64,000 bases of DNA from Allohoeflea poritis (lineage in GTDB: Bacteria > Pseudomonadota > Alphaproteobacteria > Rhizobiales > Rhizobiaceae): positions 62,001 to 126,000 of the forward strand of contig NZ_JAPJZH010000004.1 in assembly GCF_027889715.1 (NCBI RefSeq), written 5' to 3'. Shown here one piece after another: positions 1-12,560 of this stretch. Position numbers and translations under genes: made by a program. How positions within the stretch are numbered: position 1 is the stretch's first letter; every line of letters starts with the position of its first letter. The notes beneath the pieces are model-generated. The model was not told the origin of the DNA. It was given only the letters and a program-made list of their open reading frames with translations, and made no database searches.

Positions 1-1419
1 GAGCCGAACGGCTGGCCCAAGACGATTCTGAAGATTCACAAAGACTGGGTTGGTGCACGCCCGGGCTACGAGGCCGTATTTGAACTTTTCGAGGCTGGAG
101 CAATAATGCCCTCTACTCAATCCAATGTGTACGCGTCCAAACCGGAAGAGTTTCTCTCCGCACGTGCCGTCCGTTTGCCAAAAGGTGATGAAGCCTTGCT
201 CCACATCAACTGTTTTGACGGGTTGATGGCGCGCTCGCTCTGCGGCAAGATTAAACTGCCGGTCGAGATTGACACTGACGTGCGGCGCGATCAGCGGGGT
301 GCCACGCTGCTGGTTACCGACGACAAGCTGACGCCTACTGGCGGTCATCCTGCTGAACTACCTGACAATCTTAAAAAGACCTTGCGCACCCGCCTGCGCG
401 ACTGGGATATCGCGCGGCCTCGTGCCTGGGGTACGCCGGTTCCTATGGTAATCTGCGAAAGCTGCGGCGTTATTCCTGTGCCAGAGCATGAGCTTCCGAT
501 AACACTTCCTGATCGATTTGATGCCACAGCGTCCAACCCATTGACTGAGATCGCTGCATTTCGCGATGTTCCGTGCCCGGCCTGCGGCGAGCCTGCCCAG
601 CGCGAGACCGACACGCTGGAAGCCTATTCCAGCCCTTGGTGGTACTATCTGATCGCCAGCCGACCCGAGGCTGAAAATATTTTCCGATCTCAGGGCGTAG
701 AAGACTGGATGCCTGTCAATACGATGATTGGTGGCGTGGATCAGGCGCGGACCTGTTTTTTCCATTTGCGTACGACAACTGTCGGGTTAAACATGATCGG
801 TGCAACGGATGAGACCGACCCAGTTAGCGCACTAGTCGCCGTCGGCATGGTCAAGCGCGACAATGTGAAAATGAGCAAGAGTGCAGGCAACGGTACTGAT
901 CCGGCTGAACTGCTGGATCGTTTTGGAGCGGATGCCTTGCGGATTGCGGTGCTTTGGGGCGCTGCCCCAGAGCAAGAGCTGCATTGGAGCGACGATGTAA
1001 TCCTCAAAGCGGTCTCGCTTCTTAAGGCAGTGCGTAGGTATTGCGGCGCTTATGCTGACACATTCGAAAGCGGCAAACCGGCACCTGTGCCTCGAACACG
1101 TCGGGCGCGCCGTGCCCTAAACTGGATTGAGGCAACAGAACGCAAGGTGAAAAGCTGCATGGAGACTAACGCTTTTCATTTCGCGATCACCCAGATCGCT
1201 CGGCTAATAACCAGTTTAGAAAAAGCAGGTAGTGGGCAGGTGGACAACAACGACCTCGCTCCGATTCTGAGCTACGGCGCCGAAAGAATTCTGCATCTGC
1301 TCTCACCATATGCACCGCATCTGGCAGAGGAACTTTGGGCGGCTGGTGGCGGATCCGGTTTGATTGCGGCAATGCCACTGTGCCAAGAAGCACAAGATGA
1401 GTTGACGGACAACGCGTGA
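1..1419 (+). CDS. Leucyl-tRNA-synthetase-like paralogue, 5' end outside window
   Basis: The reading frame is open from base 1, so the start and the HIGH motif lie upstream; 472 residues are visible. Seen: LeuRS-type junction (GWPKTILKIHKDW, residues 5-17), the RDW-x-IARPRAWG block after the insertion domain (about 133), a four-cysteine zinc knuckle (CESC and CPAC), an intact KMSKS (290-294) and an anticodon-binding helical domain. The CP1 editing region is only about 95 residues instead of about 200, and neither the TTRPDT nor the GTG-type editing motif is present. The protein also stops after the anticodon-binding domain, so the C-terminal domain that contacts the tRNA elbow in bacterial LeuRS is missing. 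Its stop overlaps the next start (GTGA). Inference: a non-editing synthetase dedicated to this cluster, plausibly acting on the tRNA at 6401. It is unlikely to be the housekeeping leuS. Confidence 0.9.
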   Translation, partial: EPNGWPKTILKIHKDWVGARPGYEAVFELFEAGAIMPSTQSNVYASKPEEFLSARAVRLPKGDEALLHINCFDGLMARSLCGKIKLPVEIDTDVRRDQRGATLLVTDDKLTPTGGHPAELPDNLKKTLRTRLRDWDIARPRAWGTPVPMVICESCGVIPVPEHELPITLPDRFDATASNPLTEIAAFRDVPCPACGEPAQRETDTLEAYSSPWWYYLIASRPEAENIFRSQGVEDWMPVNTMIGGVDQARTCFFHLRTTTVGLNMIGATDETDPVSALVAVGMVKRDNVKMSKSAGNGTDPAELLDRFGADALRIAVLWGAAPEQELHWSDDVILKAVSLLKAVRRYCGAYADTFESGKPAPVPRTRRARRALNWIEATERKVKSCMETNAFHFAITQIARLITSLEKAGSGQVDNNDLAPILSYGAERILHLLSPYAPHLAEELWAAGGGSGLIAAMPLCQEAQDELTDNA

Positions 1420-2318
1420 CGGATGGTTTGCTGACCCCCATTGAAGGGCCTGTCTTTGATATCGCCCGCCCGGTCTTGGAGCGGTTGCCAGCCTACGCAA
1501 GGCGCAACGCCGGGGCGCTGAGCAATTCACAATGGGCTCGGGTTGTTGATCAGGCTAGACCGGCGATTGTGAGGGCTGGGTTTCCCCCGCATGAAATCCC
1601 GTTTCTAAAGCGCATTCCCGCAAATCCTGAACGTTTGATCACAAACATCCTTGCCGATCTGGCCCGCCAGGGTTTAGTTGCTGGACCTGACGCTGCCCCA
1701 ACCTCAGGCCACATGCCAGGCTTTAATCACGGCGGGCGAACCACGTTCATCTACCCCGAAGAAGGTGCTTTGCTCGAGCGTCTTGTCGCATCGCTGGGGC
1801 CGCGTCGTACCATATTTCTGGGCTCTTATTACGGCTATTGGGCCAGTTTCGCTGTACCGAATATCGTCGCGGGAGTCGGGCGCGCAATATTGGTTGATCC
1901 TGACCCTGCAGTGGCTAGGATCGCGCAAGCGAATTTCAGCGCCCAACCCGAAGTAGAGGTAGTGTGCGATACCGCCGAGCGATATCTCTCGCAATGCGCT
2001 GATACATTCGATCTTGTAGTGCTCGATGCTGAACTGCCCCGCGATCACCCGGACCCGGCGTTGCGCGGTAAAGGGCTGTATTGCCGCTTGTTGCAGGCTG
2101 TCTTGCCGCACTTGAGGACCGGCGCAGTGTTGGTAGCCCATAACATTCTGTTCAATGATCAAACCGGTGATCCCTTTTTTGACGAGGTGATTGCTCGTAA
2201 TCGCACAGAGCTTAGCGCTTTCATGGAACTTGCAAAGAATGCCTTTGGTTTTGTCGAGTATCAAACGACCGAGGGTGTGGGGATCGGCCAACTGCGCTCA
2301 AAGGCGTCATCTGCATGA
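1416..2318 (+). CDS. Class I SAM-dependent methyltransferase
   Basis: 300 residues, GTG start overlapping the synthetase stop by 4 bases, so translation is probably coupled. A Rossmann-type methyltransferase core starts near residue 130: glycine-rich motif I (FLGSYYGYWA), the acidic end of strand 2 (LVDPD), and DLVVLDAEL as motif post-I/IV, resembling the O-methyltransferase family that acts on small molecules. The first 110 residues form a helical N-terminal extension that I do not recognise. The gene is followed by an ATP-grasp ligase with an ATGA overlap, so the two should act in one pathway. The substrate cannot be read from sequence; methylation of a free amino acid or of the peptide are both possible. 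Confidence 0.8.
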   Translation: MTDGLLTPIEGPVFDIARPVLERLPAYARRNAGALSNSQWARVVDQARPAIVRAGFPPHEIPFLKRIPANPERLITNILADLARQGLVAGPDAAPTSGHMPGFNHGGRTTFIYPEEGALLERLVASLGPRRTIFLGSYYGYWASFAVPNIVAGVGRAILVDPDPAVARIAQANFSAQPEVEVVCDTAERYLSQCADTFDLVVLDAELPRDHPDPALRGKGLYCRLLQAVLPHLRTGAVLVAHNILFNDQTGDPFFDEVIARNRTELSAFMELAKNAFGFVEYQTTEGVGIGQLRSKASSA

Positions 2319-3904
2319 GCCTGTCCGACAAACACCCTTTGTTTGTCTATGGTAGTGGGCCCGACCCGCTTGTCATAATCGCGGGAGGGCTGATCTTTGA
2401 TACTGGAGAGGCAGAGCGGACGTTTTTTTACCGCTGTCAGGATCGTTTTTTGACCTATGCAGCACTTCTAGGTTGGCAGACTCTGTTTTTTGCAGCAAGT
2501 GAAGATCACGTGGCCCGCTACCAAAAACTGATCCGAGACCTGGCAGCGCGCTTTGCCGAGATCTCTGAGGCAACCGGTCTCTTTGGCATGAAAACGATCA
2601 AAGAGCCACTATTCGTTCTACTCGATGTGGAAACACTTGCTGTGCGGCCCAGCCAGCGATTGACTGCACGGCTGTCAGAGGCAGCTCTTGCGCGTTCAGT
2701 CTCGCATGGTGTGGCGCTGAACCAGATCTCACCCAGCTATGCACGTTTTCTGGCAAGCTTGGATGTAATGTTCAGCACCCTTGGTATTGCGACGAATTGG
2801 CCTCTGGCTCAAGCGCAAACCGATGCCGAGCAGGCCATGCGCCTGCAAGACAAGGCTGCTTATACGGAGATGGTCCGTCAGGCCAAACTTGCTGAAGCGC
2901 GCCACCTACCTACCGCCATCATAAACGAGGCGGACCTTCGTGGCGTACCAGATTGGCTGGCGCTTACCGCTATTTTCAAGGCGCAGACTTCGACCCCGGC
3001 CACCTCAGGCTTGTTCTTGAAAACGAACCGCAATACTAGTGGCAATGTCTCAGCTCGCTTTGACTCAGCGGGTTTTTCTGATAGCAAAGATGCGCTTTTA
3101 GCTGCGCTTTCCAGGGACGCCGCCATCGATCGCGAAACCTTGAAGCAAAAGGCCGCCGAACTGGCAGCCGAGGTCGCAGCGAATCCTGCGCTTTGCGATC
3201 ATGCTTTCGCGCCCGATGTTTTGGCCGAGTTAGTGAAAGAACAGGCTTTGATGCGCCGCGACCTAGCCTTTTTGCTGCAACCGGATCTGCACCGCGGGCC
3301 AGAAAAAAGCCGACCCATTGGTCTGGGCGTCAGCTATATGATCACTGATACCGGCGCCCAGCGTTTCGGACTGAACGCTCAAATGTATACCGACGCAGCC
3401 CGGATGCATTTTCTTGGACCCTATTTTGGGCCAGAGGTGGAAAGCTTTTGTGATGCCGGGATGCTTGCTGATTGTGCAGCCCTTGCCGATCACATTGCCC
3501 GTTCTGGCTACCGGGGGCCGATCAATTTTGATCTGATACTCGATAGGGCGGGCTGCTATCGGTTCGTACATGATTGCAACCCCCGCCTGACCGGTATCTT
3601 TCCGACACTGGCGGTGAAATGGGGGATCGTGGGTGATGATGAGGTATCTGTGATGTCATCGGGCTACCGCGGAGAGGTGGTTTTGCCCAGCCTTGCCCCC
3701 AAACTGACAACACTTCAGGCGGCAGGGTTACTTTTGACCCGCGCACAGTCCAGAGGTGTTGTGCTGCTGCCTAATCTCTCGGCACCGCAGGGTTATGATC
3801 TTCATGTTGTAGGCTATCCTTTGGAAGAGGCCCTTGCCCTGCTGGCACCGGGTGGAGCGATTACCACAGCGTTGGGTCAAGCGGTGATGCGACTCAAACT
3901 GTAA
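2315..3904 (+). CDS. ATP-grasp ligase (PGM1-like)
   Basis: 529 residues, ATG overlapping the methyltransferase stop. The C-terminal half has the ATP-grasp pattern: a LLQPDLHRG-type strand near 325, then NFDLILD and HDCNPRLTG near 405-425, where the Asp and Asn side chains of the family bind Mg-ATP. The N-terminal half is typical of the long ATP-grasp enzymes related to PGM1, which join amino acids or peptides through acyl-phosphate intermediates. Third gene of a coupled operon (synthetase, methyltransferase, ligase). Together with the gamma-glutamylcyclotransferase-like protein at 5924 it could add and later remove a gamma-glutamyl group, as BtrJ/BtrG do in butirosin biosynthesis; that analogy is inference. 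There is no obvious terminator before the convergent gene at 3950. Confidence 0.75.
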   Translation: MSLSDKHPLFVYGSGPDPLVIIAGGLIFDTGEAERTFFYRCQDRFLTYAALLGWQTLFFAASEDHVARYQKLIRDLAARFAEISEATGLFGMKTIKEPLFVLLDVETLAVRPSQRLTARLSEAALARSVSHGVALNQISPSYARFLASLDVMFSTLGIATNWPLAQAQTDAEQAMRLQDKAAYTEMVRQAKLAEARHLPTAIINEADLRGVPDWLALTAIFKAQTSTPATSGLFLKTNRNTSGNVSARFDSAGFSDSKDALLAALSRDAAIDRETLKQKAAELAAEVAANPALCDHAFAPDVLAELVKEQALMRRDLAFLLQPDLHRGPEKSRPIGLGVSYMITDTGAQRFGLNAQMYTDAARMHFLGPYFGPEVESFCDAGMLADCAALADHIARSGYRGPINFDLILDRAGCYRFVHDCNPRLTGIFPTLAVKWGIVGDDEVSVMSSGYRGEVVLPSLAPKLTTLQAAGLLLTRAQSRGVVLLPNLSAPQGYDLHVVGYPLEEALALLAPGGAITTALGQAVMRLKL

Positions 3905-3949
3905 GCTGTTGCAAAGCATCGGGCTTGCGTGATCTAGTGAACTTTTCTG

Positions 3950-4645
3950 TCAGGCAGTCGAACTTGTCTGGCCTTCACGGTCGCCTTTTACCCCCGGTAG
4001 GCGGACGTTATAGACCGCACATTCATGCTCCGCCGTAAAGCGGGCGTGCGGCACAAGCCAATCAAGTTCTTCTTCAAGGTCCTTGATATGCGCGGTATTG
4101 TTGAAAAGCACCCATGCCTGTCTTGGTCGCTGCGCAATAGAGACTCTTATGTTTGCCATCGTTTGGCGCAGTCGCGAGCCCTTGCAGGGATTGTAAAGAT
4201 AAAACACTGAAACGGATTGCGGCATTTCGATCGTTGCGGCATCGCCTTGCATGAGCTTTATTGGGGCATCGCCTTTGACACAGCGGGCGAGATTGTTCCC
4301 CGCAATCGCGTTCAAGCTTTCCGAGATTTCAACCCCCTGCACCTCGCGAAATCCCATCTCATGCGCCAGCATCAATATGCGCCCCATGCCAGAACCGATA
4401 TCCATAAAACTTTCCTGCGCAGGCGTTATGTTGGCAGTTTTGATCAATCGGGCAAATGTAGCGGCCTCAGTTGGAAAATAATCGTGGCACTCGCGCCAAT
4501 CGGTAATCAGCGTCTCGATTCGCACCAGCTTGGTTGTGTGCACCCCTTGCCTGAGGTCAAAAAGTTTGCCTCTTAGGGTCTGCAGCCCCGTGCAGATAGA
4601 GCTAATAAGCCCTCTTCGGAGATACACGTCCCAAAGCCGTCCCAT
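3950..4645 (-). CDS. Class I SAM-dependent methyltransferase, second in cluster
   Basis: About 231 residues from the ATG at 4645, eight bases after the stop of the upstream aminotransferase. An upstream ATG at 4735 would overlap that gene by 83 bases, so I prefer the shorter form. Motif I is FMDIGSGMGRILMLA, followed by VQGVEIS and, after a strand, FYLYNPC in the position of the NPPY-like motif IV, so a polar group (N or O) is a likely acceptor. The C-terminus is degenerate and basic. It forms a two-gene minus-strand unit with the PLP enzyme and converges on the plus-strand operon, leaving only 45 bases between the stops. Substrate unknown. Confidence 0.75.
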   Translation of the reverse strand: MGRLWDVYLRRGLISSICTGLQTLRGKLFDLRQGVHTTKLVRIETLITDWRECHDYFPTEAATFARLIKTANITPAQESFMDIGSGMGRILMLAHEMGFREVQGVEISESLNAIAGNNLARCVKGDAPIKLMQGDAATIEMPQSVSVFYLYNPCKGSRLRQTMANIRVSIAQRPRQAWVLFNNTAHIKDLEEELDWLVPHARFTAEHECAVYNVRLPGVKGDREGQTSSTA

Positions 4646-4652
4646 CGCAATC

Positions 4653-5831
4653 TCACTGCGCCGTGGCTCGGCTATGCGCATGCTTGACCTGACGTTCCAA
4701 AGCATCAAGCAAGCGTTCAATGTCCGACCAGTCATTGTATGCCTGGACCGAGATCCTCACCCTTGGATTATTGGCGAAATAATCGACCGAAACATCAATA
4801 CCATCCTCATGGCGCAGGCGGTGTAGCAGGTCGTTAGCGTCAGTTCCGGCGGGGAGCGGCGCACAGGTAATTTGTCCATGCCATTCGGGGCTGTCGGGAT
4901 GATAGGGCTCGGTGCCGAACATCTTGCACACTTCTTGGCGCGCGGCCATCGCCATATCGCGACAGGCCTGCCGGATGCCGGGCCAATCACGCGCAGACCA
5001 AAAATCAAGCGCGGCCGGTACTGACAAAAAGGACGAGATATCACGGCTGCCCTGCCATTCATGAAACTCCACAAAACGCGAGGGCCCTGGCACTTTCGGT
5101 TCCCAGCCCCAGCTGACTACCAGCGGGTCAAGATAACATTGCATTTGTGGGCGCGCATAAAGAAAAGCGCAGCCCTTGGGCGCACATACCCATTTGTGAA
5201 GTATACCAACATAGAAATCAGCATCTATGTCTTCTAGATCAAGCTCCAGCTGTCCTGGAACATGGCTCCCGTCGACAATGGTCATGATGCCGCGGGATTT
5301 CGCAAAATTGCAGATTTGCTTGACCGGGAACACGATTGAGCTCGGCGAAGAGAGATGCGATATCAGGATCGCCCGTGTATTATCGGTCACAGACGAAAGG
5401 AAACAGTCGAGCATATCCTCTTGCGTTGTAAGTGGCACAGGGATCGGGCAATGCACCAGCTTGAATCCCGACTTCTCGGCGCTGAACCGGAACAATCTGT
5501 CGATCCCGCCGTGCTCATGATCCGTTGTCAAAAGCTCATCGCCCGGCCCAAGCTTCAGACTGTTGGCGACAATATTCAACCCCACGGTTCCATTGGTTAC
5601 GTAGACCAGATTGTCACGCGCGGTTCCCAGAAAGTCCGCCAGAATCTGCCGCGAATAGGCCAGCCGTTCTGTGCCGTGACGTGACAGGAAATCCACCGGC
5701 TCCGCTTCCAGCAAGCGCTGCCATCTCAAATGTTCTTCAAAGACAGCCCGCGGCGTTGCGCCATAAGCACCGTGGTTCAAGTAGGTAATTGTGGGATCCA
5801 GAAGAAACTCCTCAGCAAGACCAATAGCCAA
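4653..5831 (-). CDS. Class V aminotransferase-fold PLP enzyme (isopenicillin N epimerase-like)
   Basis: 392 residues, full length for the family. Visible hallmarks: an N-terminal YLNHGAYG segment near residue 16, the TNGTVGLN phosphate-binding loop near 80, IVDGSHVPGQ with the Asp that contacts the pyridine nitrogen near 185, and the HKWVCAPKGCAFLY segment near 213-226 that carries the Schiff-base lysine. Members act as epimerases, cysteine desulfurases, C-S lyases or transaminases, so the chemistry is open. In this cluster it could make or racemise an unusual amino acid for the synthetase. The 92-bp gap to the divergent gene at 5924 must hold both promoters. Confidence 0.85.
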   Translation of the reverse strand: MAIGLAEEFLLDPTITYLNHGAYGATPRAVFEEHLRWQRLLEAEPVDFLSRHGTERLAYSRQILADFLGTARDNLVYVTNGTVGLNIVANSLKLGPGDELLTTDHEHGGIDRLFRFSAEKSGFKLVHCPIPVPLTTQEDMLDCFLSSVTDNTRAILISHLSSPSSIVFPVKQICNFAKSRGIMTIVDGSHVPGQLELDLEDIDADFYVGILHKWVCAPKGCAFLYARPQMQCYLDPLVVSWGWEPKVPGPSRFVEFHEWQGSRDISSFLSVPAALDFWSARDWPGIRQACRDMAMAARQEVCKMFGTEPYHPDSPEWHGQITCAPLPAGTDANDLLHRLRHEDGIDVSVDYFANNPRVRISVQAYNDWSDIERLLDALERQVKHAHSRATAQ

Positions 5832-5923
5832 AATAATCCCCGGAAATAGAGTTTGTCATAGATATTTTGCCCGTTACTTTACCAGGGGTTGTATGATTCG
5901 TCCAAATATTCGATCCTGTTGTT

Positions 5924-6415
5924 ATGAAGACGTATTATTTTGCTTACGGGTCCAATATGGACCAAGTTGAATTTTACCGCCGGCTCAATAGAGATCGGGA
6001 AAGGGAATTTCTGCGCTGGTCTGGTGTTCTGCCTGACTTCACTTTGCGATTTGCGAAACGTTCTTCGTTGAACCCGCGGGTCGGTTATGCCACCGTGGAT
6101 GCCGAAGCGGGGCAGCAGGTCGAGGGTGTTGTCTATGAGGTCAGTGTAGCAGAGCTTGCCACCCTCGACCGGATCGAGCTTGTGCCTGACCACTATATCC
6201 GGCTGCCGCAGACCGTTGTGATCTCCGCCATCGGCAAATCAGTGCTGGCAGAATGCTATTTCGCCACACCCGCCTGGCGCGAAAGCGGGCTACTGCCAAC
6301 GCAGGCCTATATTGCACGCATGCAGAATGCCGGCGCCCTGATTTCTGATGAATACGCCCGGGCGCTGGCCGCCCACGCCACAATAGAACAGGAGGAAAAT
6401 GCACCTGTAGCTTAA
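5924..6415 (+). CDS. Gamma-glutamylcyclotransferase-like (AIG2-fold) protein
   Basis: 163 residues. The N-terminus MKTYYFAYGSNM carries the YGSN substrate-binding loop of the gamma-glutamylcyclotransferase superfamily, and LDRIE near residue 85 supplies the expected catalytic glutamate. Related enzymes release 5-oxoproline from gamma-glutamyl amines. In biosynthetic clusters they remove a gamma-glutamyl protecting group put on by an ATP-grasp ligase, which would fit the ligases at 2315 and 11316. Unusual detail: the last five codons and the stop lie inside the tRNA gene that starts at 6401, so the last residues are encoded by its acceptor stem and D-stem. Confidence 0.85.
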   Translation: MKTYYFAYGSNMDQVEFYRRLNRDREREFLRWSGVLPDFTLRFAKRSSLNPRVGYATVDAEAGQQVEGVVYEVSVAELATLDRIELVPDHYIRLPQTVVISAIGKSVLAECYFATPAWRESGLLPTQAYIARMQNAGALISDEYARALAAHATIEQEENAPVA

Positions 6416-6587
6416 ACTGGCTAATTGCGATACCAGAAGGTTGTAATGGCTCTTCCGGAGGTCGGCTTGCTTAACCAGGGCATCGGCAGACCGAGCGAAA
6501 GCTGAACCTTCAATTGGATGGTCATCTGCAAAAAGCACCGGCTTTGGGAGCTGGGAAATGCGGGTTCGAGTCCCGTCGGGTGCGCCA
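6401..6587 (+). tRNA. tRNA with UGG anticodon and 109-nt D-loop insertion
   Basis: Without 6424-6532 this folds as a complete 78-nt cloverleaf with encoded CCA. Acceptor GCACCTG (6401-6407) pairs with CGGGTGC (6577-6583), with one U-G pair. D-stem GCTT (6410-6413) pairs with AAGC (6533-6536), and the D-loop AAACTGGCTA has G18G19. Anticodon stem CCGGC/GCTGG (6538-6542, 6550-6554) encloses loop TTTGGGA, giving anticodon TGG with U33. The variable loop is GAAAT. T-stem GCGGG/CCCGT encloses TTCGAGT. The anticodon loop is that of tRNA-Pro(UGG), but G1-C72 and discriminator G73 are not; bacterial tRNA-Pro normally has C1-G72 and A73. A T6 run follows at 6590. Likely partner: the LeuRS-like enzyme at 1-1419 (inference). 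Confidence 0.9.
6424..6532 (+). other. D-loop insertion or intron inside the tRNA gene
   Basis: 109 nt lie between A21 and the 3' strand of the D-stem; the exact boundary is ambiguous by one A. The segment has its own fold: a perfect 7-bp stem GAAGGTT (6436-6442) with AACCTTC (6505-6511), extendable by CCA/TGG across a small bulge. It encloses a hairpin with a GAAA tetraloop (6494-6503) and a possible GGTC/GACC stem (6460-6463, 6489-6492). It is too short for a group I intron and sits in the D-loop rather than the anticodon loop where bacterial tRNA introns occur. It may be spliced by an unknown route or kept as an enlarged D-arm that serves as an identity element for the synthetase. Confidence 0.75.
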
Positions 6588-6607
6588 ATTTTTTCACGAC
6601 AAGACTG

Positions 6608-6626
6608 AAAGGAGGTGATATTTTTG
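6608..6626 (+). promoter_or_regulatory. Exact-match Shine-Dalgarno and TTG start of the peptide gene
   Basis: The 11-base string AAGGAGGTGAT (6609-6619) matches the complement of the 3' end of 16S rRNA without mismatch. The TTG at 6624 lies 8 bases after the GGAGG core, the best spacing. A second, weaker GAGGT lies before the in-frame ATG at 6648. I choose TTG 6624 because of the site quality. Such a site predicts very strong initiation, as expected for an abundant ribosomal peptide precursor. Confidence 0.7.
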
Positions 6627-6878
6627 GCAACCGATAAAGAGGTACTTATGAAGGTACATGAAATCCTGGCTTCGGCGAGTACACCACTTGCGGCGTCCGC
6701 TGCACCACTGGCTGAAAGCGCTGTTCCACTGGCTGGCGTGCCAGCGGATGGCAAACTGTCAGGTTCGGTACCAGTATCCGCAGTGCCAGTTGCTCCAGCA
6801 GCAAAGGCATTGAGTGACCATGCTGCTCCAATTGCAAGTTGGTCGGCTCCAATTGCGAAAGCCGTTCCAGCGATGTAG
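6624..6878 (+). CDS. Ala/Pro-rich precursor peptide, all Pro codons CCA
   Basis: 84 residues from TTG 6624 (76 from ATG 6648). A short charged leader (MATDKEVLMKVHEILASAS) is followed by a repetitive tail of motifs such as TPLAASA, APLAESA, VPLAG, VPVSA, APIASWS, APIAKA, ending VPAM. It contains no Arg, Cys, Asn, Tyr or Gln, and a single Trp. Every one of its ten proline codons is CCA, although Ala, Val and Ser each use several synonyms. By hand count the flanking genes at 5924 and 7478 use CCA for only 2 of 23 prolines. CCA is the exact cognate of the UGG anticodon of the tRNA just upstream. I read it as the substrate of the radical SAM enzyme, ligases and peptidase encoded nearby. No known peptide family recognised. 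Confidence 0.8.
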   Translation: MATDKEVLMKVHEILASASTPLAASAAPLAESAVPLAGVPADGKLSGSVPVSAVPVAPAAKALSDHAAPIASWSAPIAKAVPAM

Positions 6879-7147
6879 CGCTGGTCACAGCCTGTATAAC
6901 GATCTTTGATCGTATGACGTGATGCCCTGGAAAATGATGCCCTGGGCACGAGGAAGATGAATAGAACTCTTCCTCGTGCTTTCCTTTGTGTTTTAGCAAG
7001 TTTAAATTAAGCCCTTCAATAACGACATAATTGCTTGTTTTGCCTGATATTTCTCCCAATATTGTCGGCGGGTTTGACCAAGACTTTACTCTCGTGCTAA
7101 GTTTATTTAGGCGCTAGGATCTATTTATAGTTGTCGAGGGAACAACC
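6879..7147. other. Intergenic: terminator, small repeats, possible promoter
   Basis: After the precursor stop there is a small hairpin ACGATC-TTT-GATCGT (6899-6913), a direct repeat of TGATGCCCTGG (6920-6930 and 6935-6945), then the strong terminator listed separately. A weak promoter-like pair, TTGACC at 7073 and TAAGTT 18 bases later, lies before the small gene at 7148. No coding sequence seen. Confidence 0.5.
6946..6986 (+). terminator. Strong intrinsic terminator after the precursor gene
   Basis: Perfect 12-bp stem GCACGAGGAAGA (6946-6957) with TCTTCCTCGTGC (6968-6979), a 10-nt loop, then a T-rich run (TTTCCTTT). It would separate the abundant tRNA/precursor transcript from the enzyme genes downstream. 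Confidence 0.85.
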
Positions 7148-7297
7148 ATGAAAGAGAAAACATTGTCTGCAAAAGAAATGGAAGCTCTTGAAGAAGCCAT
7201 TCGCGAAGTGAAAGAGGCTCAGGGAGCTGTTCAGTTGGCATTGTTAGACGAAAAACTCGCGCGGATCTCGAAGCTATTGGGCGTCGTTCAAGTCTAG
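7148..7297 (+). CDS. 49-residue helical small protein
   Basis: Begins with ATG after GAGGGA at good spacing and ends at TAG 7295. The product is strongly charged and predicted helical, with a run of Glu/Lys/Ala (KEMEALEEAIREVKEAQ) and a hydrophobic tail (ISKLLGVVQV). It has no proline, cysteine or tryptophan, in contrast to the precursor. It could be a second precursor leader, a partner subunit of the radical SAM enzyme, or a regulator. No family recognised. It lies between the precursor terminator and a 9-bp inverted repeat before the radical SAM gene. Confidence 0.6.
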   Translation: MKEKTLSAKEMEALEEAIREVKEAQGAVQLALLDEKLARISKLLGVVQV

Positions 7298-7385
7298 CTA
7301 TAAAGCAGATCGGATCAGCACAATCCGAATCCGGGTTTCGTTGAACCTTTCAAAATCGGCCCAAATCCGTTCTCCATTTTGACGG

Positions 7386-7411
7386 GCTAAACCGGTCGGC
7401 AGCGGTTTAGC
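7386..7411 (+). promoter_or_regulatory. Stem-loop between small gene and enzyme genes
   Basis: Perfect 9-bp inverted repeat GCTAAACCG (7386-7394) with CGGTTTAGC (7403-7411), 8-nt loop, without a proper T-run after it. It may attenuate read-through into the radical SAM gene or protect the upstream transcript. Confidence 0.5.
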
Positions 7412-7477
7412 GTTCCTTAACTGCTATCTTTCGAGACAAGATTGAAAAAGCAGCAGTTTTAAGATTCTGAAATCTGC

Positions 7478-8650
7478 GTGATTGAGATGCATGATATTTC
7501 TAGACTTCCGCATCTAGTTGCCGGACGCGAGCGTCTCGAAAATCTTTGGGCGGCTGGTACAGATTATTCCACCGATATTGTAGAGGCGGCGCGTGTGCAA
7601 AACGCGATGCTCCATCTTGACCTGGATCTCACGGGTGAATGCAAGCTGAATTGTTTTTACTGTGATCGCACCCCGGATCGTTTTAATGACGTGCCCAACC
7701 GGATTGAGATTACAACTCACGAAAGGTGTGAGCTCGTTTCACAAGCGAGAGCGCTCGGTGCAACTACTGTCGAGTTTCCCGGCGCGGGTGAGCCAATGAT
7801 CGACCCTGGCTTTTGGGATATTGTGGAGTTTGTCCACAACCTCGGCATGACAACCGTTCTTTTCACCAGCGGCTATCATCTTAACGAAAATGCCGTAGAC
7901 CGGCTCTTCAATTTGGGTACCACCGTCTTTTTGAAACAGAACTCAATGTCTAGCGCGGTGCAGGACAAGATGGTGGGGGTAAGGGGCTATGGCATCAAGG
8001 CGCAGCGGGCCTTGAAACTGCTGATGGAGCGTGGATTCAACAAGACCATTCCGACTCGGCTTGCTGTGGATATGGTCGTGACACCTCAGTTCAATGAATC
8101 TGCCGATTTCGCCGAAGTGGTAGAGATGCACCGTTGGTGCCGCGAGAATAATATCCACAATTACATCGTCACTTTGATTCCGGAAGGGCGAGCGGATAAG
8201 CAAGCGATGTTGCTTGAGCGCGAGCGCACTAATCGAATGATTCAAGCGGTTCAGAAAGTTGATGAGCAAGAGTTCGGACTGACCTATGAACCGTCTCGAC
8301 CGATGGCAGGAGGCTACCGCTGCCGGCAGGTCAATGTGGGTTTATTTGTGAACCTTTTTGGTGAGGTTTACGATTGCAATGGTCTGGGTCGATTTCTAGG
8401 ACATATTCGGCGCGACAGTCTGGAGACGATCTGGAATTCGAAGTTCTCGCGCCATGTACGCGCGCCGGTGCAGGACGGGTTCTGCTTGCTGAGAGAGCGG
8501 GTCTGGGATGACGGCGACGCGCTTTCTGGGCTTGAGCGCAAGGTCCAACTTTACCGGCTCTATAAAGCCACAAAGGGTGATGATCCTGTCGTTACTGGCG
8601 GTCTAGAGTTCGCCATGAATCCGAAACCTAAACCCGAAGATGGGACATAG
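7478..8650 (+). CDS. Radical SAM enzyme with C-terminal SPASM/twitch-like domain
   Basis: 390 residues from GTG 7478; ATG 7487 is an alternative start, and neither has a clear ribosome site. The CxxxCxxC cluster motif (C55, C59, C62) for the SAM-binding 4Fe-4S centre is intact, followed by FPGAGEPM as the GGEP-like SAM motif near 99-106. A C-terminal segment with RCRQV, EVYDCNG and a late Cys (about 284-325) resembles the auxiliary-cluster (SPASM/twitch) domain typical of peptide-modifying radical SAM enzymes. First gene of a tight four-gene unit (7478-12560) with the ureohydrolase, peptidase and ligase. Probable role: modification of the CCA-rich precursor or synthesis of its special residue. 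No separate PqqD-like recognition domain is visible. Confidence 0.85.
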   Translation: MIEMHDISRLPHLVAGRERLENLWAAGTDYSTDIVEAARVQNAMLHLDLDLTGECKLNCFYCDRTPDRFNDVPNRIEITTHERCELVSQARALGATTVEFPGAGEPMIDPGFWDIVEFVHNLGMTTVLFTSGYHLNENAVDRLFNLGTTVFLKQNSMSSAVQDKMVGVRGYGIKAQRALKLLMERGFNKTIPTRLAVDMVVTPQFNESADFAEVVEMHRWCRENNIHNYIVTLIPEGRADKQAMLLERERTNRMIQAVQKVDEQEFGLTYEPSRPMAGGYRCRQVNVGLFVNLFGEVYDCNGLGRFLGHIRRDSLETIWNSKFSRHVRAPVQDGFCLLRERVWDDGDALSGLERKVQLYRLYKATKGDDPVVTGGLEFAMNPKPKPEDGT

Positions 8651-8653
8651 ACC

Positions 8654-9667
8654 ATGCTGGACCGAGAGCGGCAGGTGGCGGTTACTGGCGACCACATTCC
8701 GGTGGTCCGCGATGAAACAGTCACCTGGATTAAGGACAAATGGGCGCCTCCGGATGAGGACGGCCCCAGCGATCCGGTTTTTGGTTTCCTTTCTGTTCCG
8801 TTTGACTTTGCGGTTAGCCACAGGCCGGGTTGTAGATTTGGCCCGGAGAGCATATTGGCGGCGCTAAACGGCTACACAGCCTATTGCGCCGACAAACGCG
8901 TCTCGCTCGAGCGCGCCGGTTTCGCAAATTTTGGGGCCGTCGATATCGTGCGCTCCTTTGAGCAAAGCTATCAGAATATCCGCAATGAGGTGGCTGCCTT
9001 CCCAAATCACATCTCACCGATCATATTGGGCGGTGATCATTCAATCAGCGATCCTTGTGTGCGCGGCGCCATTGACCGCAATGGCGGGCGGTGCATGGGC
9101 TTGCTAGTAATCGATGCGCATTTTGACTCGCGGGAACCAATCCCCGGCAAAGAGCATTCTGGCCATTGGATGCATACATTGGGTGACGTCATTGACTATA
9201 GTAAAGTGGCACAGTTGGGGATCAACGCGCCAATCTATTCCGAAGCTTACATGCAGGCCGCGCAAACGAGAGGTGTTTATGTTGCTACGCCCTATGATAT
9301 TCGGACAAGCGGCCAACGCGCTGTGGTAGAAGAGGCCATCGCCCATGTCACCGCTGGTACCGATGGGGTTTACCTAACGGTGGACATAGATGCAGTGGAC
9401 CAGGCATTTGCGCCCGGCACCAGTGTACCAAATCCTTGTGGGCTTCTTGCGCATGAAGTAGTCGACATGGTCTATGAGATCGCCGCCTCTGGGTACGTAA
9501 GAGTTTTTGATCTGACTGAGGTTAGCCCACCGCTTGATCGAGATGGGATGACATCGCAGTTGGCGGCAGGCATTGTGATGAACTATATGGCGGGTGTAGT
9601 ACAGTATCGCGCGAGGACAGGCCCCGTTTTGCAAGAAAGAGGCGGAGCCCGTGCCGCAAACGGATGA
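8654..9667 (+). CDS. Arginase/agmatinase-family ureohydrolase
   Basis: 337 residues, starting 4 bases after the radical SAM stop. The binuclear manganese site is complete: GGDHS with H129, DAHFD with D154, H156 and D158, and DIDAVD with D244 and D246. The family cleaves guanidino groups to urea plus an amine. A peptide arginase (OspR) that converts Arg to ornithine within a ribosomal peptide is known, but the precursor here has no Arg. The substrate is therefore more likely a free guanidino amino acid made for the synthetase, or a protecting amidino group. It differs from the catabolic arginase at 57265. Its stop overlaps the next start (ATGA). Confidence 0.88.
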   Translation: MLDRERQVAVTGDHIPVVRDETVTWIKDKWAPPDEDGPSDPVFGFLSVPFDFAVSHRPGCRFGPESILAALNGYTAYCADKRVSLERAGFANFGAVDIVRSFEQSYQNIRNEVAAFPNHISPIILGGDHSISDPCVRGAIDRNGGRCMGLLVIDAHFDSREPIPGKEHSGHWMHTLGDVIDYSKVAQLGINAPIYSEAYMQAAQTRGVYVATPYDIRTSGQRAVVEEAIAHVTAGTDGVYLTVDIDAVDQAFAPGTSVPNPCGLLAHEVVDMVYEIAASGYVRVFDLTEVSPPLDRDGMTSQLAAGIVMNYMAGVVQYRARTGPVLQERGGARAANG

Positions 9668-11307
9668 TCGACGATATTGTTTTGGCCTATCGGGGGAACG
9701 GTAAAGCTGCAGCGCGTCAGTTCCCAGACCGGCCTTTGGTGTTGGTGGAAAACCTTGACACGCTGGAAAATCTTGCCGCCCTGCGTACAGCAGCGTCTTT
9801 GACTTTTGCCGGTCGCTGGGAGGATCTAACTAACCATCTTTCGAGTGTGCTGATAAATTGGGCGCTTGCCAAAGATGGTCGCGGCTGTGGTTTGTATCTT
9901 TTGGACGCGCAACCAGTTACACCGCTTGCACTATCATCACAGATACCTCATCGGGCTGTCGATGACGCCATTGCGTACGTATTGGCCGGTGATGGTATAG
10001 CAGAGGCATACCGCTCAGGTCATCGTTGCAACCTTTCGGCTGAGCGTGTAGCGGATATAGTGCTAGACCCTGCAGAACCTGCGCCGCGAAGCCTTGCTCT
10101 GACAGGTCACGGGGCAGAGTATTGCACACAGTTTGGCCCCCACTGGTTGAGCACATACCAAACAGAGTTTCTACCCGGACGTGTCGTGATACCTGCGTTC
10201 AAACTGGCCGATGCGGTGTTGTTGAACTCATGTGCTTCGCTCAGGCTCGCGAGATCATCTGTGCCGGAGGCCTATTCACTAGCCCGTCATCTGTTCGGAT
10301 TGGGAACGTCAGTATTAGGTAATACCACCAACACTCACACCTCTTTGCAATTTGGCCGGCTATTTGTTGAGGCTTTGGCAAGTGGTGTCTCGTTGGGTGA
10401 GACGGTGAGCTTCTTGAACCGATTGGCGATCAATATGGGTGAGAGGCCAGGGATGCAGCTTTTAGGGGATGCGGCGATGACGTGTGCCGATCATGGTCGC
10501 AGTCGGTCCCTATCCGCCCAACTTACTCCCATTGCGCGCAACAACTCGGCTCTTAAGTCCCTTCAACGCGCCCTTACCAAGGCTGCCAAGCTAGAACATG
10601 TGGCCGCAGGCTTTGCGCGCTGGGCGCCGACACCGCCTGATTTTCAGGACCGGCTTTCCGTCCTGTCGCAGGCGATTGACCAATGCGGGTATGTGGTCCA
10701 GGCCAGCTCACTGATCGATTTGACTCTGCCAGAGGTGGAGGTGGTTGAAGACTCACTTTCAAGGGCAGTGGATGGAGTAGAGGGGATACTGGCGCTTTCC
10801 CTCACGAAGGCGGTGCAGAATCACGGCTGGCTTGAGGGCCTCTACAGTAGGTACTATCGCAGGTTCGATCAAACTCAGATCATCTGCTCCCGCTGCGGCG
10901 CGGAGGCTACACGCAGCCAGCGCAAGCCGTTCTCCGCCCTATTGCCCCCAATTTTCCGACAGGAATGTTCTTGCTGCGGCACTACAGATGAGGGATTCGG
11001 CTGTGATGTGGAGTTCGACGCACTGGACCTTCACAGGGAGGGAGACATTTTGCATCTGGAATTGCCCGCCCTCCCTGATGGTGCGCGAGGACTTGTCATG
11101 TTTCATCGTATGCCAGGTTTTGAGCCGCTCGAATGGTCCGGGAGGGCTACTCGAAAGACAGTCGCATTGCGGGCGCTTGAGTATGCGGGCCGGGTGACAC
11201 TTGTAGTTGTGATGATCGGAAGTGGCGCGGTGTGCTTGCGTTTTTACACGCTCTTTGTTGCGCCCCTGGTAGAGTGTGCGGATCATGACAACGCGCGCAG
11301 ATTGTAG
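9664..11307 (+). CDS. Clan CD (caspase/CHAT/gingipain-like) peptidase with zinc-ribbon
   Basis: 547 residues, ATG overlapping the ureohydrolase stop. The clan CD dyad pattern is visible: a hydrophobic strand ending in TGHG with H149 and a second ending in LLNSC with C190. Beyond it are a SLGNTT-like turn, a LASGVSLGE helix and QLLGDAAM near 265-272, like the LLGDP segment of C25 and CHAT-type peptidases. A four-cysteine zinc-ribbon-like element follows (CSRC at 408-411, CSCC at 435-438). There is no signal peptide, so it should act in the cytoplasm. Its position suggests leader removal or cutting of the repetitive precursor. The family assignment rests on motif order only. Confidence 0.65.
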   Translation: MIDDIVLAYRGNGKAAARQFPDRPLVLVENLDTLENLAALRTAASLTFAGRWEDLTNHLSSVLINWALAKDGRGCGLYLLDAQPVTPLALSSQIPHRAVDDAIAYVLAGDGIAEAYRSGHRCNLSAERVADIVLDPAEPAPRSLALTGHGAEYCTQFGPHWLSTYQTEFLPGRVVIPAFKLADAVLLNSCASLRLARSSVPEAYSLARHLFGLGTSVLGNTTNTHTSLQFGRLFVEALASGVSLGETVSFLNRLAINMGERPGMQLLGDAAMTCADHGRSRSLSAQLTPIARNNSALKSLQRALTKAAKLEHVAAGFARWAPTPPDFQDRLSVLSQAIDQCGYVVQASSLIDLTLPEVEVVEDSLSRAVDGVEGILALSLTKAVQNHGWLEGLYSRYYRRFDQTQIICSRCGAEATRSQRKPFSALLPPIFRQECSCCGTTDEGFGCDVEFDALDLHREGDILHLELPALPDGARGLVMFHRMPGFEPLEWSGRATRKTVALRALEYAGRVTLVVVMIGSGAVCLRFYTLFVAPLVECADHDNARRL

Positions 11308-11315
11308 GCACAATC

Positions 11316-12560
11316 ATGACACAAGAGATCATCTTTGTAGAGGCAAGCGTTACTGGTGCGGGGTACTTGGCAAGTGTGTTTGCCCGCGAAGAGGGGTTGT
11401 CGGTCACCTTGCTAACCAGAGATCCCGCCATATATGCAACTGACCTGCTAGCGCAAGTGGATGATGTCATCACCTGTGATACCGATAGTGCACAGGTCGT
11501 GGCACAGATCGCTAAAGCGCGCGCCAGGGATCGCTCGGTTGTCGCGTTGACCACGACAGCAGATATGTATGTGCCGCAGGCGGCCTTTGCAGCACAGACA
11601 CTTGGCCTCCCGGGTCTGCGCTACCAGGCAGCTTTACGAGCACGGAACAAGCATAAGATGCGTGAGGCATTGGCTGAACAAGCGCCTGACTGCAACACGG
11701 AGTTTGCCTTGGTGATGGCAGCAGACGAGGTTAGTGCAGCTCAGGCGCGGCTGGGTCTGCCGCTGATCGCCAAGCCGCAAGAAGAAAATGACGGAATCGG
11801 CGTCAGGCTTATCCGCTCAACCAGTGAATTGGAAACCTATGTTTCACAGGCGCTTAGCCGAACACACAATTCCGCCGGCCAGTCCGTACCTCCTGGCGTA
11901 TTGCTGGAGGCATTCATCGACTGGCCAGAGTTCAGCGTAGAAACTATTCAATATCCAGGCGGGCCTTGTCAGGTGATCGGAGTGACGTTGAAGCAAGTGA
12001 TTGGGCAAGAGCGCGCCCATTTCGTGGAAGCTGGTCACGTGTTTCCCTATGCAGGGCCAGAGGTTGAGGTAGCGACAACAGCTGTAGTTAGGGTCCTTGG
12101 GGCCATGGGCATTGATCACGGTGCAGTCCATACGGAGTGCCGGGTCAGAGCACAGGAGGTTGCAATCATGGAGATAAATCCTCGCTTGGCAGGAGGCAAG
12201 ATCGGTTCCCATCTTATTGAAATGGCGACAGGGGTCAGCGCGGTCAATGCGGTGGTGGAGGCGGCTCTAGGAAGACGCAGGCGCTGGGCGGCGCTGCGTC
12301 AACAAGCGGCCTCGATCCAAAATGTTTGGGCAAGTTGCCCGGGAGTTTTTCAAGGCATCAGAAACGTCGATTATCTGCGTGGTCTGCCCGGTATCACTTC
12401 AGTCTCGACCCTTGTTGAGCCCGGCACGCTCGTTGGCCCGCCCACGAAGAACGGAGATAGCATTGCAGAAATTCTGGCGGTGGGTGCTGATTTTGATACC
12501 GCAAAGGCCAATGCTGAACGCGCGCTTGCAGAAATCGACGTTGACTTAGTAGCGGCTTAG
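11316..12560 (+). CDS. ATP-grasp ligase (L-amino acid ligase / BacD-like)
   Basis: 414 residues, 8 bases after the peptidase stop. It begins with a Rossmann-like preATP-grasp domain (IIFVEASVTGAGYLA). The ATP-grasp core includes GLPLIAKPQEENDGIGV near 147-165 for ATP binding and MEINPRLAGGKIGSHLIEMATG near 285-305, whose Glu and Asn bind magnesium. This second motif is typical of dipeptide ligases such as BacD and of ATP-grasp enzymes in natural product clusters. Last gene of the 7478-12560 unit. It could link an amino acid to the product or to a biosynthetic intermediate. No terminator is evident downstream. Confidence 0.82.
   Translation: MTQEIIFVEASVTGAGYLASVFAREEGLSVTLLTRDPAIYATDLLAQVDDVITCDTDSAQVVAQIAKARARDRSVVALTTTADMYVPQAAFAAQTLGLPGLRYQAALRARNKHKMREALAEQAPDCNTEFALVMAADEVSAAQARLGLPLIAKPQEENDGIGVRLIRSTSELETYVSQALSRTHNSAGQSVPPGVLLEAFIDWPEFSVETIQYPGGPCQVIGVTLKQVIGQERAHFVEAGHVFPYAGPEVEVATTAVVRVLGAMGIDHGAVHTECRVRAQEVAIMEINPRLAGGKIGSHLIEMATGVSAVNAVVEAALGRRRRWAALRQQAASIQNVWASCPGVFQGIRNVDYLRGLPGITSVSTLVEPGTLVGPPTKNGDSIAEILAVGADFDTAKANAERALAEIDVDLVAA

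Follow-up and report, generated by a model that had tools for sequence, protein, structure and literature searches.

Here we describe a gene cluster at the start of a 64,000-nucleotide stretch of the Allohoeflea poritis genome (hereafter the window, which lies on the 409-kb contig C44), in which a divergent leucyl-tRNA synthetase (LeuRS), a transfer RNA (tRNA) with the anticodon UGG and a small gene that spells all of its prolines CCA stand on one strand. The synthetase gene, which we call LeuRS*, occupies C44:61380-63416, begins 621 bases before the window and encodes 679 amino acids. The tRNA carries a long insert in its D-loop, and behind the stop codon of the small gene lie two tandem repeats complementary to the middle of that insert. 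A second, distant system of the same composition was found in a genome that we call G196, which is kin to A. poritis at class level only. The positions of all features are collected in Table 1.

LeuRS* keeps the HIGH and KMSKS catalytic motifs and D80, and it reaches 421 bits against the model TIGR00396, whose equivalog cut-off is 548 bits. Compared with Escherichia coli LeuRS its amino-acid pocket carries M40L, L41P, F493Y, S496P, Y527M, H533Q and H537C, with Y499 unchanged, and so the six residues that make a leucine pocket of the TIGR00396 type (M40, F493, Y499, Y527, H533 and H537) read L, Y, Y, M, Q and C. Among 18 other readable LeuRS, a set that excludes two contig-end fragments (L027 and L030), residues S496, Y499, Y527, H533 and H537 are retained in every one, M40 in 17 and F493 in 15; in the two fragments only M40, F41 and D80 can be read, and all are ordinary. 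The editing region, connective peptide 1 (CP1), is short and degenerate, with T252 replaced by E and D345 falling in an alignment gap. A leucine-specific insert before KMSKS is also absent, as it is from some ordinary LeuRS of the alignment. The C-terminal domain, which in LeuRS normally contacts the tRNA elbow, is missing altogether, and this loss fits a tRNA that bears an arm at its elbow. Judged by its sequence, LeuRS* is a LeuRS impaired in editing whose amino-acid pocket has been rebuilt, and because of this rebuilding its substrate has likely changed, which argues for an amino acid other than leucine. According to PMC6610526, M40, L41, Y499, Y527 and H537 are among the sites mutated in E. 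coli LeuRS engineered for unnatural amino acids.

Once its insert is removed, the tRNA is an 80-nucleotide cloverleaf; the insert sits behind the usual GG of the D-loop, and its hairpin is predicted with pair probabilities of about 0.7. The program ARAGORN did not report this tRNA in the window, presumably because of the 107-base insert. The anticodon is of the proline form NGG, UGG both here and in G196, and the acceptor end is of another kind: the three host tRNA-Pro that were found (UGG, CGG and GGG) all have C1:G72 with A73, as against G1:C72 with G73 in the window and G1:C72 with U73 in G196. According to PMC9976931, G72 and A73 are determinants for E. coli prolyl-tRNA synthetase (ProRS), and G73 in E. 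coli tRNA-Ser is an antideterminant against LeuRS. The loss of the ProRS determinants argues against proline as the charge of this tRNA. The last 12 bases of its acceptor end are, letter for letter, those of one host tRNA-Arg(CCG), and a tRNA-Pro(UGG) from a viral contig has exactly the same anticodon arm. We rejected a transfer-messenger RNA (tmRNA) or a tRNA intron as the origin of the insert, since the anticodon arm is intact and ARAGORN reports no tmRNA in the window; an Rfam scan of the tRNA stretches of the window and of G196 found no intron family. Two small reading frames touch the tRNA: a 19-codon ATG frame inside the insert (window 6446-6505, MALPEVGLLNQGIGRPSES) behind a weak Shine-Dalgarno-like AAGG, probably there by chance, and a three-codon frame across the first tRNA bases (window 6390-6410), whose strong Shine-Dalgarno sequence and ATG lie in the end of the preceding cyclotransferase gene.

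Between the end of the tRNA at 6587 and the start of the peptide gene at 6624 there are exactly 36 bases. All ten prolines of the 84-residue peptide are encoded by CCA, and its alanine, valine and leucine codons vary. The probability of ten CCA in ten is 7.7e-8 against ten cluster genes (42 of 216 proline codons) and 2.9e-8 against 41 long open reading frames (ORFs) of the window (143 of 811), backgrounds with 18-19% CCA; measured against the remaining fourfold codons of the peptide itself, of which 13 in 49 end in A, it is 1.7e-6, or 1.8e-5 by Fisher's test, all of these values assuming independent codons when some of the prolines sit in similar repeats. A scan of C44 for ORFs with at least seven prolines, at least 85% of them CCA, returned this peptide and one other among 1302 ORFs, the other being an antisense-looking frame opposite another reading frame and lacking a Shine-Dalgarno sequence. 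Elsewhere in the cluster CCA is used normally, LeuRS* itself having 10 CCA among 44 proline codons. The perfect Shine-Dalgarno sequence before the peptide suggests that it is strongly translated. A preliminary description of this DNA had named a LeuRS paralogue without the parts for ordinary editing and elbow binding, a UGG tRNA with an acceptor end unlike that of tRNA-Pro, and a peptide that starts 36 bases after the tRNA and uses CCA for all ten prolines; the first two are borne out by the residues and domains described above, and the distance and the count are both exact. That description mentions neither the D-loop insert nor its complementarity to the region behind the peptide stop codon.

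The middle of the insert contains a ten-base motif that is the reverse complement of the two repeats in the 3' untranslated region (3'UTR) of the peptide gene. On both strands of C44 there are seven GATGCCCTGG sites, and the sole tandem pair is the one at 6921/6936. In G196 the same repeat stands five times behind the peptide stop codon, every 14 bases. The inserts of the two tRNAs are mostly dissimilar and share the identical stretch CCAGGGCATCG; the motif lies at offset 50 of 107 in the window and 53 of 115 in G196, near the predicted hairpin tip in both, and it is the only complementary stretch of at least nine bases between tRNA and 3'UTR that both systems possess. The duplex of motif and repeat has an energy of -19.0 kcal/mol. 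In a shuffle test devised after the motif had been noticed, shuffled 3'UTRs gave 10-base matches as good in 1 of 2000 trials for the window and in none of 2000 for G196, and 8-base matches as good in 11 of 2000 and none of 2000. The sense of the motif is opposite in tRNA and 3'UTR, which points to base-pairing, as a protein-binding motif would be expected to keep the same sense in both.

G196 was the sole LeuRS match besides A. poritis itself among 385 genomes of the class (E 6.0e-61). Its LeuRS is 32% identical to that of the window and has six pocket residues replaced (Y40, P41, S499, D527, N533 and A537), with F493 as in E. coli and the editing changes T252A and D345A. Behind this gene, on the same strand and past a gene for an AMP-binding enzyme, stands a tRNA that begins GCACCTGTAGCTTAA-TTGGCTA like that of the window and has a UGG anticodon, G1:C72, U73 and a D-loop insert of about 115 nucleotides; all 21 cloverleaf pairs are kept between the two, and of the G196 tRNA ARAGORN detects the 3' half alone, attached to an incorrect 5' half. 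Upstream of the synthetase, the nearest small gene encodes a 64-residue peptide with a similar start and the same Shine-Dalgarno sequence. Seven of its eight prolines are CCA and one is CCC (P 2.7e-6 against a background of 140 in 1158 from 36 ORFs; Fisher 7.4e-5 against its own fourfold sites), and it alone shows such a bias, by the same limits of at least seven prolines and 85%, among 864 ORFs in the 257,000 bases of the G196 contig C22 that were examined. Synthetase, UGG tRNA and CCA-biased peptide, whose co-occurrence the preliminary description had proposed to look for, thus stand together in the sole distant relative found, which strengthens its interpretation, and nothing that would by its own account refute the idea was encountered. 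None of the other proteins of the window cluster matched the G196 locus at E 1e-3, apart from a remote arginase-family match (27.6%) far off on the contig, and the common core is therefore synthetase, tRNA and peptide. A tree joins the two LeuRS* at 91/89, though long branches meet there, so that a common origin of the two systems rests mainly on the tRNA.

The searches for LeuRS* drew on 385 genomes of the class, 394 of the family, 398 of the phylum, 397 of the order and 296 of the actinobacterial phylum, draws that overlap, and scored the best two to four candidates per genome. The thresholds were 1e-65 in the family, phylum and actinobacterial searches and 1e-62 in the order search. G196 would fail all four, which means that these searches under-detect, and the system may be commoner than the two cases in hand. 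The other LeuRS matches of the phylum and actinobacterial searches, ten in number and including the fragments L027 and L030, have ordinary residues.

We consider it probable that LeuRS*, the UGG tRNA, the CCA peptide and the pairing between insert and 3'UTR are four coupled parts of a natural module for code expansion or reassignment. In the mechanism that we propose, LeuRS* would load its private tRNA with an amino acid other than proline, and probably other than leucine, and on the ribosome the charged tRNA would read the CCA codons of a single small peptide. The region of CCAGGGCATC at the tip of the D-loop hairpin would pair with the tandem GATGCCCTGG repeats behind the peptide stop codon, and this pairing would hold the private tRNA on its own message, where it could beat the host tRNA-Pro(UGG), sparing CCA elsewhere. 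Towards the more specific form of this proposal, in which CCA stands for a non-proteinogenic residue in this one peptide only, addressed through the pairing of D-loop arm and 3'UTR, we lean with less assurance. A dedicated synthetase-tRNA pair, as expected of natural code expansion, is present in both systems, the one presumably charging the other. The preliminary description had likewise supposed a tRNA charged by this synthetase with something other than proline and read at CCA; the pocket speaks for a substrate other than leucine and the lost ProRS determinants speak against proline, and from these we infer the charging and the insertion.

Besides the late devising of the shuffle test, several observations weigh against this proposal. 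The stability of the insert is unexceptional (z -1.09, with 144 of 1000 shuffles as good), as is that of the whole tRNA (z -0.62), and the cloverleaf is 2-4 kcal/mol less favourable than the minimum-energy fold obtained without constraint. Five of the ten motif bases are mostly paired in the predicted fold of the window, and two or three in that of G196. The duplex of whole insert and whole 3'UTR is unremarkable, being matched by 29 and 169 of 500 shuffles. No letter of the docking motif differs between the two systems, so that it offers no covariation, and between the two cloverleaves there are three one-sided changes and no compensatory one. CCA usage is normal in the remaining genes of the cluster, whose CCA codons would be misread without docking. 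No amino-acid-making enzyme is common to the two clusters, and only two systems are known.

Some of the logic is familiar from other systems. Pyrrolysine is inserted at a stop codon with a class II synthetase; as with PylRS/tRNAPyl, the present synthetase and tRNA form a dedicated pair, with genes nearby that might make the amino acid, and in contrast to it the synthetase is of class I and the codon is a sense one, read by the host as proline too. The selenocysteine insertion sequence (SECIS) works through the protein SelB at UGA, a message element there letting a special tRNA win at particular codons as proposed here, with the difference that here the complementarity to the message lies in the tRNA itself. 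Short LeuRS and second LeuRS on mobile elements also exist. The 637-residue LeuRS of PDB 3ziu, which we take to be that of Mycoplasma mobile and to be without an editing domain, is an example of the former, and AgnB2 of agrocin plasmids of the latter; both are leucine enzymes for ordinary tRNA-Leu, and we know of no private tRNA for either. CysRS*/SelC* and the allo-tRNAs likewise combine a non-canonical tRNA with its own synthetase or an odd identity, and in the portions of PMC9437257 and PMC7609411 available they show altered acceptor and T arms or other irregularities, with neither a long D-loop hairpin nor a matched peptide. Aptamer hairpins on tRNA variable arms are reported to have been engineered for the recruitment of proteins (PMC7590224).

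Nearest in logic is ProRSx/tRNAProX of Streptomyces and Kitasatospora, in which, according to the commentary PMC10365949 and as reviewed in PMC9437257, proline is inserted at alanine, asparagine or threonine codons. There too a synthetase isoform is encoded beside its own dual-identity tRNA, which misreads a sense codon. The donor in that case is ProRS, and here it would be a LeuRS with a rebuilt pocket, working with a tRNA that has a proline anticodon and a D-loop arm; the tRNA-Pro backbone, foreign anticodon and ProRS isoform of that system are replaced here by a non-proline acceptor, a proline anticodon and a LeuRS isoform. A single target peptide with matching codons and a putative docking site in its 3'UTR are further differences.

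That precedent of a co-encoded isoform and dual-identity tRNA (PMC10365949) lends some weight to programmed mistranslation, in which LeuRS* would attach leucine, or some other standard residue, to the private tRNA and CCA in the peptide would be read accordingly, as its descent from LeuRS also favours. We nevertheless find this unlikely: both LeuRS* carry other residues at the pocket positions where leucine is held, and a plain substitution could be had by a codon change, which would make the pair, the docking site and the tailoring enzymes a costly route to it. The complementarity to the 3'UTR would be equally expected of a regulatory RNA acting on the peptide message, and tRNA-dependent enzymes that extend peptides are reported (PMC11962472), so that the tRNA might have a non-decoding role, as such an antisense regulator or as amino-acid donor for an enzyme that modifies the peptide. 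This is quite improbable, as it leaves the CCA bias of both peptides unexplained; in addition, Pfam scans show no lanthipeptide dehydratase, cyclodipeptide synthase or FemX-type enzyme among the window-cluster proteins that they covered, and in G196 a single GNAT domain occurs, as part of a fusion with a luciferase-like monooxygenase. That host ProRS charges the tRNA with proline to speed a proline-rich peptide, LeuRS* being employed elsewhere, would account for the CCA bias through a matching local tRNA and suits the intact anticodon arm with its tRNA-Pro(UGG) twin on a viral contig, and it is very improbable given that G1:C72 with G73 (U73 in G196) removes the main ProRS determinants, that the host already has three tRNA-Pro including UGG, and that LeuRS* and the private tRNA occur together in both systems found.

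Table 1. Features of the cluster, with positions in the window; genes of the surroundings follow those of the proposed module.
Feature	Position	Strand	Remarks
LeuRS* gene, 3' two thirds	1..1419	+	HIGH/KMSKS intact, pocket replaced, T252/D345 lost
Private tRNA	6401..6587	+	anticodon UGG at 6545-6547, G1:C72, G73, encoded CCA; cloverleaf; homologue in G196
D-loop insert, 107 nucleotides	6425..6531	+	predicted long hairpin
Putative docking motif CCAGGGCATC	6475..6484	+	mid-insert; reverse complement of the 3'UTR repeats
Perfect Shine-Dalgarno sequence AAAGGAGGTGA	6608..6618	+	identical letters in G196
CCA-only peptide, 84 amino acids	6624..6878	+	TTG start (76 amino acids if ATG 6648)
3'UTR repeat 1	6921..6930	+	GATGCCCTGG
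3'UTR repeat 2	6936..6945	+	GATGCCCTGG
Terminator-like 12-bp hairpin and T-rich tail, behind the repeats	6946..6994	+	hairpin itself 6946-6979; fold -20.7 kcal/mol; read by eye
Class I S-adenosylmethionine (SAM) methyltransferase-like protein MT1	1416..2318	+	overlaps LeuRS* stop; Pfam Methyltransf_24
529-residue protein, possibly ATP-grasp peptide ligase	2315..3904	+	weak match 8ynd, E 0.29
Methyltransferase MT2	3950..4735	-	Pfam DOT1 / Methyltransf_25, weak
Class V aminotransferase-fold pyridoxal phosphate (PLP) enzyme	4653..5831	-	Pfam Aminotran_5, E 4.7e-31
Gamma-glutamylamine cyclotransferase-like protein	5924..6415	+	Pfam GGACT; last 15 bases overlap tRNA
Separate cluster: 49-residue precursor, radical SAM/SPASM, arginase-like, 547-residue protein, ATP-grasp ligase	7148..12560	+	

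Around the core lie enzymes that could supply an amino acid. An AurF-like N-oxygenase gene is divergent and upstream of LeuRS*, and the 529-residue protein has no Pfam family above cut-off and, sought in 101 relatives, occurred in its own genome only. Proteins encoded near the G196 core include an aldolase/RraA-like protein, a homocitrate-synthase-like (HMGL) enzyme and a PhyH dioxygenase. The N-oxygenase, methyltransferases and PLP enzyme of the window and the enzymes of G196 could make different special amino acids. The G196 cluster (L108:10949-19270) also holds a phosphopantetheinyl transferase, the luciferase-like monooxygenase-GNAT fusion and two thioesterases, and is possibly an undescribed natural-product pathway.

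On C44 a P4-type integrase-like gene, recognized by eye at C44:50100-51526, follows a tRNA-Leu(CAG) gene, which makes it possible that the cluster is part of an integrated island. We found no repeat of the 3' end of that tRNA, and at window 32436 there are 14 bases that match its 5' end. The G+C content of the window is 44-48% at 16-28 kb and mostly 58-63% past 30 kb, falling to 51% at 36-40 kb.

The preliminary description had the cluster surrounded by enzymes of amino acid and peptide chemistry, and such enzymes are indeed present; the ones from 7148 to 12560, however, make up an independent cluster that has a 49-residue precursor of its own. We set these radical-SAM genes aside because their order is the same on three Sinorhizobium plasmids and in loci of Sinorhizobium glycinis and Bradyrhizobium, none of which has a match to LeuRS* or to the CCA peptide. 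In the S. glycinis and Bradyrhizobium loci ARAGORN reported no tRNA, though it also misses the private tRNA, and the docking 10-mer has no tRNA-like match there. The separate cluster resembles those for ribosomally synthesized and post-translationally modified peptides: its precursor has no proline and ends in VQV, and its ATP-grasp protein is of the LAL type. The 547-residue protein has no Pfam family, and its GHG and NSC stretches are reminiscent of CHAT/caspase-like peptidases. The pair of radical SAM and arginase-family proteins is seen as well in Litchfieldella, Hahella, Azospirillum and Protofrankia (loci L009-L014), where by eye it stands behind a membrane protein resembling a drug/metabolite transporter and where the precursor, the 547-residue protein and the ATP-grasp protein have no match.

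Further candidate relatives were tried and rejected. Of four viral contigs with an exact match to the anticodon arm, one carries an ordinary tRNA-Pro and the other three yielded no tRNA; none of 58 viral contigs with the tandem motif has the private tRNA adjoining it, the single weak frame listed having two CCA among four proline codons. A viral match to the 5' end of the tRNA is an ordinary tRNA-Ile, and four viral relatives of LeuRS have ordinary pocket histidines. A relative of AT5 on a Sinorhizobium plasmid is surrounded by phosphonate genes with no LeuRS annotated, and the 31 kb shown around an AurF-like relative on a Streptomyces plasmid has no annotated LeuRS either. The tRNA arrays on plasmids of Acidiphilium and Nonomuraea (L025 and L026; 37 and 35 tRNAs, about 24 kb each) consist of ordinary tRNAs.

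A search of the literature found no description of a synthetase-tRNA-peptide triad of this sort; it did not cover docking between a tRNA and a 3'UTR, for which, as a means of addressing, we know of no precedent. To our knowledge selenocysteine and pyrrolysine are the only natural additions to the twenty-amino-acid code, both at stop codons. If the proposal is true, nature would here have reassigned a sense codon within a single message only, by letting a tRNA pair with the 3'UTR, and the meaning of a codon would be set for each messenger RNA through RNA-RNA pairing. The candidate orthogonal pair, with its addressing device, might then serve code engineering by giving one sense codon two meanings in the same cell. 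An altered synthetase pocket, a tRNA with a D-loop arm, a codon-biased peptide and complementary 3'UTR repeats form a signature that can be searched for, and ribosomal peptides with built-in unusual residues would, if the proposal holds, become a discoverable class.

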